This document shows, in pieces, positions 3,945 to 24,143 of a DNA stretch of 39,236 bases. The stretch is taken from NCBI GenBank assembly GCA_016276965.1, contig JADNRU010000007.1, forward strand, positions 1-39,236. Reading direction: 5' to 3'. Every line of letters begins with the position of its first letter. Positions within the stretch are counted from its first letter, which is position 1. This stretch comes from Nitrosopumilales archaeon (lineage in GTDB: Archaea > Thermoproteota > Nitrososphaeria > Nitrososphaerales > Nitrosopumilaceae). The position numbers and the translations under genes are program-made. The notes below the pieces were generated by a model, which was not told the origin of the DNA, ran no database searches, and saw nothing but the letters and a program-made list of their open reading frames with translations.

Positions 3945-4016
3945 TGATTTTCATAGATCTTGGACCTTTCTATTTTTTATTAATTATTGAAATTACTAAT
4001 TTAGCGAAATTGGAAC

Positions 4017-4089
4017 GGGTCTAGTGGGATTCGGACCCACGACAACCGGATTAAAAGTCCGGTGCGCTACCTGGCTGCGCCATAGACCC
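4017..4089 (-). tRNA. tRNA-Lys (anticodon TTT)
   Basis: GGGTCTA…TAGACCC acceptor, GGACTTTTAATCC anticodon arm, GTGGGTCCGAATCCCAC T-arm; no intron. Confidence 0.95.
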
Positions 4090-20963: not shown

Positions 20964-22448
20964 ATGATCGAAATTACATCAACTCCAGTGATTTTGATTG
21001 CAATATTAGGTACAATAGGTGTAGCCCTTCCAATAATTAGCATTTCACGAAAGGAAAGAGGTTCATCATCATTTTACGGTGCCATTACCTTTGGTGCGTT
21101 ACTAGCTTCAATTGGTTACGTTGTATATCAGATTTTTTCTGAAAATATTTTACCAGGAGCTGTCTTTTCAGAAGATGTTCTTGTTGATGATACTTTTGGT
21201 AGCTTGTTTGCAATTGCAATGTTAATTGTTGCAATGATGACAACAGTTGGCTCATTCAATTACATGCGAAACAAACCTCATACTGCGGTATATTTTTCGT
21301 TGATTCTTTTGTCCACTATAGGAATGGTACTCATTGCATATTCTACTGACTTGATAATGCTTTTAATTGCGTGGGAACTAATGAGTATCCCAACATATGT
21401 TCTAGCCGGCTTTATCAAAAAAGATCCAATGTCAAATGAAGCTGCACTCAAATACTTTTTGTTTGGTGCACTTGCATCAGCAATTATAATTTACGGAATT
21501 TCAATTGTATATGGTATTACAGGTTCAACTAACATTGGCGAAGTAATTCAGGGATTTGCAGCACTTGATTCAGACATGATGCCTCTTGCATTGTTAGCTG
21601 TTGCAATGTTTATTGCAGGATTTGGATTCAAAATGGGACTTGTTCCGTTCCACATGTGGTTACCTGATGCCTATGAAGGCTCTCCGCCAACTATTGCCAC
21701 ACTTTTAGCAGCTGGAACAAAGAAAGCAGGATTTGCTGCTGCAATACGAGTCATTGTAATGGGTACAATTGCTCTAAACTTGGAATGGACTTTTGCCCTC
21801 GGAATAATTGCTGTAATGACTATGACTGTTGGAAATGTTGCTGCAATTATGCAAAAAAATCTGGCAAGAATGCTTGCCTATTCCAGTATAGGACATGCTG
21901 GATACATCCTAATAGGCCTCTCAATTGCACCATTTAGCTCTATAGGACTTCAAGGTTCACTCTTTCATATCTTAAATCACGCAGTAATGAAAGGTGCTGC
22001 ATTCATTGCAGTAGCTGGAATAGTTTCAACTTTGGCAATTGCAAATATTGAAAAGCTAAAAGGTCTTGGAAGAAAAATGCCAATTACTTCATTAGGACTT
22101 GTTATTTCACTTCTTGCATTAGCTGGAGTTCCCCCACTTAATGGATTTTGGAGTAAATTGATATTATTTGGTGCTGCAATTGATGCAGGTCCAGTAGCTG
22201 CTTGGGCTCCCTGGCTTGCTATAGCCGGTGTTCTAAACAGCGCACTTTCACTAGCTTACTATGGTTGGATTATTCGAAAGATGTACTTTGAAGGAGAGAC
22301 AGAAAAAAGAGTCAAAGAACCAAAATCTATAATTGCCGTCATGATATTTTCTATCATCTTCATAGTAGCAATCGGAGTCTATCCAGACCCAATCATACAA
22401 TTTACAGAAAGTGCTGTACCTTCACTTAGTATGGCAATCTCGCCTTGA
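20964..22448 (+). CDS. nuoN: Complex I subunit N (antiporter-like)
   Basis: AWELMSIPTYVLAGF; KMGLVPFHMWLPDAYEGSPPTIATLLAAGTKKAGFAA. Confidence 0.95.
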   Translation: MIEITSTPVILIAILGTIGVALPIISISRKERGSSSFYGAITFGALLASIGYVVYQIFSENILPGAVFSEDVLVDDTFGSLFAIAMLIVAMMTTVGSFNYMRNKPHTAVYFSLILLSTIGMVLIAYSTDLIMLLIAWELMSIPTYVLAGFIKKDPMSNEAALKYFLFGALASAIIIYGISIVYGITGSTNIGEVIQGFAALDSDMMPLALLAVAMFIAGFGFKMGLVPFHMWLPDAYEGSPPTIATLLAAGTKKAGFAAAIRVIVMGTIALNLEWTFALGIIAVMTMTVGNVAAIMQKNLARMLAYSSIGHAGYILIGLSIAPFSSIGLQGSLFHILNHAVMKGAAFIAVAGIVSTLAIANIEKLKGLGRKMPITSLGLVISLLALAGVPPLNGFWSKLILFGAAIDAGPVAAWAPWLAIAGVLNSALSLAYYGWIIRKMYFEGETEKRVKEPKSIIAVMIFSIIFIVAIGVYPDPIIQFTESAVPSLSMAISP

Positions 22449-23289
22449 ATATCGTAAATTTAATTAGATTCTCTAAATTTGATTTTGCATCGCCATCAGT
22501 GATTTTTCTTAGACCAAACCGTGCTTTTTGAGAATAATTTTTCAATAAATCTTCCATTTTGTTAAATACGTCACGTGGATCAGAACTTTTTTTGATTAAC
22601 AGATTGAATAATTTATCTTCATTTTTCCAGTCATGAAGATCATCTTGAATTTGATAAGCAACGCCAATGTTTTTTCCATATTCTGATAAAGCTTCAATTT
22701 CTTCTTCAGTCCCTCCTCCAAGTATAGCTCCGAGTCTTGCTGCAGTTTCAAATGCCGTTGCAGTTTTGTATTCTATGACTTTAAGGTAATCATCAAATGT
22801 CACATCCTCACTTTCTTCTAATTTACCTTCAAGAATTTCTCCTTCACTCATTAGCATTGCAGTTGTGGAAAGATCTTTTGTTATCCTAGGATTGTTAATT
22901 CTAGAAGAGATATTGAGAATTAAACCCAAAACAAAATCTCCTGAAAGAATACTAGTATTATATCCATATTTGATATAAAATGGGTCTTTGTGTCTCCTTA
23001 ACGTTTCATTATCTATAATATCATCATGAATGACCGATTCTGTGTGTAGAAGCTCTACGGCACATGAGGCAACATAGGCATTTTCATCGGCCTTTCCCAC
23101 ACTTTCTGCTGCCAGGATTAAAATTAAGGGCCTAATTCGTTTTCCTCCCTCCGTTGCATATTTTAGGGAATCAATAAACTCTGATTCTGAATATAGATCA
23201 AGTTCAGATTCTAATGAAGAATCAATTTTTTTAATATAATTTTCGTATGTTTCTAGAAGAGGATTGACTTCAATGTTTTTCCTGTCCAA
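22426..23289 (-). CDS. Geranylgeranyl diphosphate synthase (polyprenyl synthetase)
   Basis: GGKRIRPLILILAAE; HTESVIHDDIIDNE; YQIQDDLHDW. Confidence 0.93.
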   Translation of the reverse strand: MDRKNIEVNPLLETYENYIKKIDSSLESELDLYSESEFIDSLKYATEGGKRIRPLILILAAESVGKADENAYVASCAVELLHTESVIHDDIIDNETLRRHKDPFYIKYGYNTSILSGDFVLGLILNISSRINNPRITKDLSTTAMLMSEGEILEGKLEESEDVTFDDYLKVIEYKTATAFETAARLGAILGGGTEEEIEALSEYGKNIGVAYQIQDDLHDWKNEDKLFNLLIKKSSDPRDVFNKMEDLLKNYSQKARFGLRKITDGDAKSNLENLIKFTIFKARLPY

Positions 23290-23333: not shown

Positions 23334-23425
23334 TGCTCCCGCCGGGATTTTCATCATTAAGATTTTGAACCCGGGATCACCGCCTTGAAAGGGCGGTATG
23401 CTTGACCGGTCTACACCACAGGAGC
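23334..23425 (-). tRNA. tRNA-Glu (anticodon TTC) with apparent 16-nt insertion/intron in the T-loop
   Basis: GCTCCTG…CGGGAGC acceptor, CCGCC-CTTTCAA-GGCGG anticodon arm, CCGGG-TTCAAAATCTTAATGATGAAAAT-CCCGG T-arm; 92 nt, or 76 nt after removing 16. Confidence 0.9.
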
Positions 23426-23507
23426 CCGATTTGCATCGTGTTATCTTATCCATAAAATCTTTTTGAAACTCCAAAGATTTTTTTATCACCTTAAAACGAT
23501 AAAACCC

Positions 23508-24143
23508 GTGAATTCTCTAATAAAACTAATCGATGAATTGATCGAAGAACGAAGTTTGTTGAAACATCCATTTTACCAAATGTGGTCTGATGGAAAATTA
23601 TCTCTTGATTCTTTAACTGGGTACTCAAAAGAATATTTCCAACTTGTAAAGGCAGTCCCATCCTTTATGACACCTATAATAAAAAATGCTACTGAAACAG
23701 TTGTTGGAGAACTTACTTCAAATCAAGAAGAAGAAGTGCAACACATTGGACCTTGGATAAAATTTGCTGGAGCATTAGGGGTGCCTGAAAAGGAATTAGA
23801 ACAATATCCAGGTCTTTCCAAAACGAGACAAGCTGTTTCTCAACTTTCATCATTGATGAATTCCTTTGAAGGAGGATCTTGTGCAATGTATGCTTTTGAA
23901 AAGGAAATTCCAAAAATTAGTCAAGTAAAGTTAGATGGATTGGTAGAATTTTATGGAATTGACAGTGAAGATGCAACAGAATACTTCAAACTTCATACAG
24001 AAGCAGACATCAGACATGCTGCAAGCTGGAGAAAAATTCTTGACAAATCTTCAACAAATGACGAAGATATGATTAAAACTGCAGAAAAATCATTATCTGC
24101 ACAAAACTTGTTGCTTGACAGTTGTTACGAAGCTTACTGTTAA
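23508..24143 (+). CDS. CADD/PqqC-like (TenA/THI-4/PQQC superfamily) diiron-type protein
   Basis: LIEERSLLKHPFYQMWSDGKLSLDSLTGYSKEYFQLVKAVPSF; HTEADIRHAASWRKIL; likely GTG start near 23508 within ORF 23463..24143. Confidence 0.75.
   Translation: MNSLIKLIDELIEERSLLKHPFYQMWSDGKLSLDSLTGYSKEYFQLVKAVPSFMTPIIKNATETVVGELTSNQEEEVQHIGPWIKFAGALGVPEKELEQYPGLSKTRQAVSQLSSLMNSFEGGSCAMYAFEKEIPKISQVKLDGLVEFYGIDSEDATEYFKLHTEADIRHAASWRKILDKSSTNDEDMIKTAEKSLSAQNLLLDSCYEAYC

Follow-up and report, generated by a model that had tools for sequence, protein, structure and literature searches.

A 16-nt intron at position 59/60 of tRNA-Glu(UUC) in a Nitrosopumilaceae archaeon, with a conserved bulge-helix-bulge motif at its predicted splice sites

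The window, a stretch of 39,236 nt from an 85% complete MAG of an ammonia-oxidizing Nitrosopumilaceae archaeon (83 contigs, 1.17 Mb), carries a tRNA-Glu(UUC) gene interrupted in its T-loop. It is almost certainly a functional and essential gene with a 16-nt non-canonical intron at position 59/60, which would be spliced by EndA and RtcB through a bulge-helix-bulge (BHB) motif. The intron is a real and ordinary member of the known archaeal tRNA intron class. Position 59/60 is among the listed sites of archaeal non-canonical tRNA introns (PMC4090602), Thaumarchaeota have non-canonical introns together with an alpha2-beta2 endonuclease (PMC3218864), and tRNAscan-SE 2.0 includes a Thaumarchaeota-specific BHB model, with 107 non-canonical introns counted in Thaumarchaeota genomes (PMC8450103); this kind of intron was therefore already known. 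A first-pass annotation of the window had proposed a non-canonical tRNA intron and advised a check of its position and size. The proposal was right; the site is a published one, and the size class is that of known BHB introns.

The acceptor, D, anticodon and T stems of the tRNA are all intact, and the T-loop, TTCAAAATCTTAATGATGAAAAT, has 23 nt (Table 1). The earlier description of a tRNA-Glu(TTC) with all arms intact, a 16-nt insertion and AAAAT at both insert ends is accurate, and what it leaves out is the strand, which is the minus strand. CCA is encoded directly downstream of the gene at 23333-23331. Searched against the genome, the spliced 75-mer matches in two pieces, query 1-62 to 23425-23364 and query 60-75 to 23350-23335. 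In the window, ARAGORN called the Lys, Asp and Met tRNAs and did not call this gene, and the Rfam tRNA model matched only its 5′ part with 21.6 bits, below the cut-off of 29. Both outcomes are expected when the T-arm is interrupted.

Table 1. Features of the tRNA-Glu(UUC) locus and its neighbors (window coordinates)
Feature	Position	Strand	Basis
Precursor tRNA-Glu(UUC), G1 (23425) to A73 (23334) including the intron; acceptor end 23335	23334..23425	(-)	sequence; two-piece match; stems intact
Anticodon TTC (reads GAA/GAG)	23387..23389	(-)	sequence
5′ exon, tRNA positions 1-59, ending ...TTCAAA	23364..23425	(-)	100% match to spliced-query 1-62; equals intronless tRNA-Glu(UUC) of G028
3′ exon, T60 to position 72	23335..23347	(-)	spliced-query match and comparison with relatives
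16-nt intron ATCTTAATGATGAAAA at position 59/60	23348..23363	(-)	missing from Glu(CTC) and intronless relatives; same site in many loci
Exon strand of the BHB central helix, TTCA (54-57), partner 23350-23353	23366..23369	(-)	paired in 41/41; U-A to C-G at position 55 in six
Intron strand of the BHB central helix, TGAA	23350..23353	(-)	pair counts and RNAalifold
5′ splice-site bulge AA/A, predicted cut after second base	23363..23365	(-)	AAN in 41/41 distinct sequences
3′ splice-site bulge AA/T, predicted cut after second base	23347..23349	(-)	ANT in 41/41 distinct sequences
Inner helix TC:GA around 5-nt loop TTAAT	23354..23362	(-)	at least 2 bp in 41/41
Short-chain polyprenyl (GGPP-type) diphosphate synthase, downstream neighbor; syntenic anchor and gene tree	22426..23289	(-)	NCBIfam, below curated cut-offs
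CADD/PqqC-like protein, divergent upstream neighbor, context only	23463..24143	(+)	NCBIfam TIGR04305, below its curated cut-off

The first-pass annotation had also asked whether a second tRNA-Glu(TTC) is absent. A search of the 85% complete assembly turned up none; the spliced 75-mer retrieved a single Glu(TTC), the intron-bearing one. The Glu(CTC) of the same genome is 89% identical, intronless, and has the ordinary TTCAAAT loop. GAA, which a tRNA with the anticodon CUC should not decode, predominates over GAG in six window ORFs (102 vs 28); tRNA-Glu(UUC) must therefore be made. An essential tRNA that ARAGORN and the Rfam threshold overlook is there, so that glutamate decoding is not to be called incomplete in this genome.

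Judged on the window sequence alone, the AAAAT duplication allows six equivalent cuts, and to this extent the earlier remark on several equivalent junctions is right; overall, however, the BHB and the relatives leave one. Among 41 distinct T-arms of relatives, the position that follows TTCAAA can be A, T or C and the one that precedes the final T can be A, G, C or T, and TTCAAA and T are constant except at base 55, with A59 and U60 fixed. The variable terminal bases of the intron, the two fixed exon bases and the geometry of the BHB together place the junction between A59 and U60 despite the duplication. In a BHB, each 3-nt bulge is cut after its second base, and application of this rule to the window gives TTCAAA+T, the loop of the intronless relatives. 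Removal of the intron at this site, which lies away from 37/38, restores a standard tRNA: the predicted product is 100% identical over 75 nt to the natural intronless tRNA-Glu(UUC) of a relative (G028).

BHB folding had been suggested as a check, and the window sequence fits a strict BHB, composed of the T-stem, a 4-bp UUCA:UGAA helix, two 3-nt bulges (AA/A and AA/U) and the inner helix UC:GA. Every one of the 41 distinct T-arms fits this BHB too. All of these have the 4-bp central helix, the 3-nt bulges and an inner helix of at least 2 bp, and follow the pattern T-stem, T[TC]CA, AAN, inner hairpin, TG[AG]A, ANT, T-stem. Pair counts over the 41 sequences gave 451 paired cells out of 451, with both sides changed in 14 cells as against 1.9 +/- 1.2 in shuffles, none of which reached as high. 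Slid pairing partners scored far below, and RNAalifold, unprompted, returned the same BHB. Exon base 55 and its intron partner are U-A in 35 and C-G in six of the 41 sequences with no exception, so that U to C at base 55 is matched by A to G in the intron, a covariation across the exon-intron boundary. The inner helix covaries as well, from U-A to G-C in two sequences and with GCC:GGC in L086/L087. In one sequence, the full BHB geometry would appear at the site by chance in about 0.2-0.3% of shuffled inserts; its conservation in many other loci rules chance out. When RNAfold was applied to the window sequence alone, the minimum-energy fold was an ATC:GAT hairpin without the central helix. This hairpin was rejected as a conserved structure because 17 of the 41 relatives cannot form its extra pair.

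When the spliced tRNA was searched against 100 relatives, matches interrupted in the T-loop appeared in much of the family. Together with 80 named loci that surround the prenyltransferase gene, this yielded 147 extracted Glu tRNAs; since some genomes occur in both sets, the locus count does not equal a species count. An intron at 59/60 is present in 100 of the Glu(TTC) genes, the window included, and absent from 28, and all 19 Glu(CTC) genes are without it. The introns are 14-22 nt long and occur in 41 distinct T-arms. On this comparison, the intron is common to most, not all, Nitrosopumilaceae. Judged by the prenyltransferase gene, Thaumarchaeota CSP1-1 (86%) and archaeon MnTg01 (84%) are the closest of the named relatives, and it is the named relatives that assign the window to Nitrosopumilaceae. 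On the prenyltransferase tree, presence and absence of the intron require at least five changes, three of them forced by well-supported branches. The intron is absent from Nitrosopelagicus and, at the same syntenic place, from several Nitrosopumilus nested among intron bearers; precise loss in several lineages is therefore likely, with the direction of gain and loss partly inferred because the tree is unrooted and of one protein. The 41 variants, with their boundary covariation and the precise losses at a syntenic locus, show by clean comparative evidence what a minimal BHB intron looks like. In relatives, a conserved AAAAGATTTTATGGA precedes tRNA-Glu by about 30-45 nt (window 23440-23470) and is a possible TATA-type promoter. 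One contig titled Chitinophagaceae bacterium (L156) carries the Nitrosopumilaceae prenyltransferase/tRNA-Glu locus, and the bin is thus contaminated or mislabelled.

The same comparison bears on the idea that the gene has decayed into a tRNA pseudogene through a small T-loop duplication (AAAAT ... AAAAT), tRNA-Glu(UUC) being supplied by another gene. The 5-nt direct repeat that flanks the insert and the only 85% completeness of the assembly would agree with such decay, which is nevertheless very improbable. Neither broken stems nor relaxed constraint is found: the stems pair, and the gene is conserved in most of the family at the same place beside the prenyltransferase gene, its BHB kept through compensatory change. 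In genomes that yielded both genes, Glu(UUC) is single and carries the intron, and Glu(CUC) is single and lacks it. Furthermore, the flanking repeat has decayed in many relatives (e.g. AAATT...AAAAT) and is therefore not needed. Retention of the insertion, which would give the mature tRNA a larger T-loop that serves structure or regulation, is still harder to believe. Although the insert remains a hairpin attached to the T-stem in the minimum-energy fold, the length and letters of the hairpin loop vary freely in introns of 14-22 nt and only the splice-site letters are kept; several lineages have lost the insert precisely to leave an ordinary loop, and a T-loop of 21-29 nt would abolish the T-loop/D-loop contact.

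The perfect box-C string ATGATGA pointed out in the first-pass annotation is present but carries no significance, as it is a by-product of the conserved GA/UGAA of the BHB. Archaeal tRNA introns can contain C/D guides and ATGATGA fits RUGAUGA, but that the insert holds a box C/D guide RNA or a K-turn is practically out of the question: 16 nt is too short for box C, guide and box D, no conserved pair of boxes C and D flanking a guide is found, RUGAUGA occurs in nine of 41 distinct introns and CTGA (box D) in four but never both, about 17% would have the box-C string by chance given the BHB letters, and the sole Rfam C/D match, sR38, scores 13.5 bits against a cut-off of 50.

Because the 59/60 intron pairs with T-loop positions 54-57, it would evolve together with a nearly universal tRNA base. 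Two relatives (L049 and L053) have an intronless tRNA-Glu(UUC) with C55 (TCCAAAT), and these genes are apparently remnants of intron loss in a C55 lineage. It is conceivable, if rather unlikely, that A to G in the intron, tolerated as U-G, made a change of U55 to C possible in the tRNA-Glu(UUC) of some sub-lineages, the base then persisting in the intronless L049 and L053. C in place of the nearly universal U55 was also seen in the window tRNA-Lys(TTT) (4016-4089, minus strand), in a tRNA-Thr(TGT) (L002) and in the tRNA-Lys of several relatives. As a general mark of a lost T-loop intron, C55 was rejected: most relatives match the window tRNA-Lys(UUU) at full length and ungapped, and C55 thus arises without introns. 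A scan for the TCCA...TGGA pattern found four Glu(UUC) loci and three others, two of which look unrelated to tRNAs (L214 and L215), the third looking like part of another interrupted tRNA (L220).

Genes for the splicing machinery occur in the genus. Two EndA paralogues were found in nearly all of 40 family genomes. When aligned to solved crenarchaeal catalytic subunits, the alpha subunit of a congener (L204) shows the triad Tyr, His and Lys and, by our own count on the alignment, a lysine that matches K44 of A. pernix in the crenarchaea-specific loop, the importance of which is documented (PMC6379350). The EndA copy recovered in the window genome (L100) is without the histidine and is interpreted as a structural (beta-type) subunit; the 85% complete assembly yielded no catalytic alpha subunit, which presumably lies in the missing 15%. 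The ligase of the pathway, RtcB, is encoded in the window genome (PF01139, E = 9.3e-179). In the precursor, U54-A57 of the T-loop would base-pair with the intron's UGAA, located in its 3′ part, and this pairing, the T-stem and the short intron hairpin would form a strict 3-4-3 BHB. The heteromeric (alpha-beta)2 splicing endonuclease would cut each bulge after its second base (AA/A and AA/U), the intron would leave, and RtcB would ligate A59 with U60, whereby the normal loop UUCAAAU would be restored. That cleavage and ligation take this course in the cell is what we infer from the sequences.

Three further genes of the window genome have, by eye, a probable non-canonical intron: a Val(CAC) in the variable region (L019, G000:C32:12773-12866), an Arg(CCT)-like gene in the D-arm (L028, G000:C4:32978-33043) and a Gln(TTG)-like gene near position 10 (L029, G000:C3:34177-34233). 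In other families of the same order, introns at 59/60 are also found in both Glu(UUC) and Glu(CUC), many being without one; examples come from G061, G062 and G091 (L181, L182, L184 and L200). The UUCA:UGAA helix of the window recurs in L184 and L200; in L181 and L182 the central helix is relaxed. By eye, the Glu tRNAs of L198 and L200 (G099 and G091), from another family, appear to have two introns, in the anticodon loop and at 59/60. The 59/60 introns of these families sometimes lie in the CUC isoacceptor and can have longer inner hairpins. A BHB-type junction at 59/60 is also known from the circularly permuted tRNA genes of Thermofilum pendens (PMC3218864), although the exons are in normal order here. 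Compared with known BHB-type 59/60 introns, the present one is very short (14-22 nt in the family) and lies in one isoacceptor, but position, motif, size class and the expected EndA/RtcB pathway are the same, and nothing essential differs.
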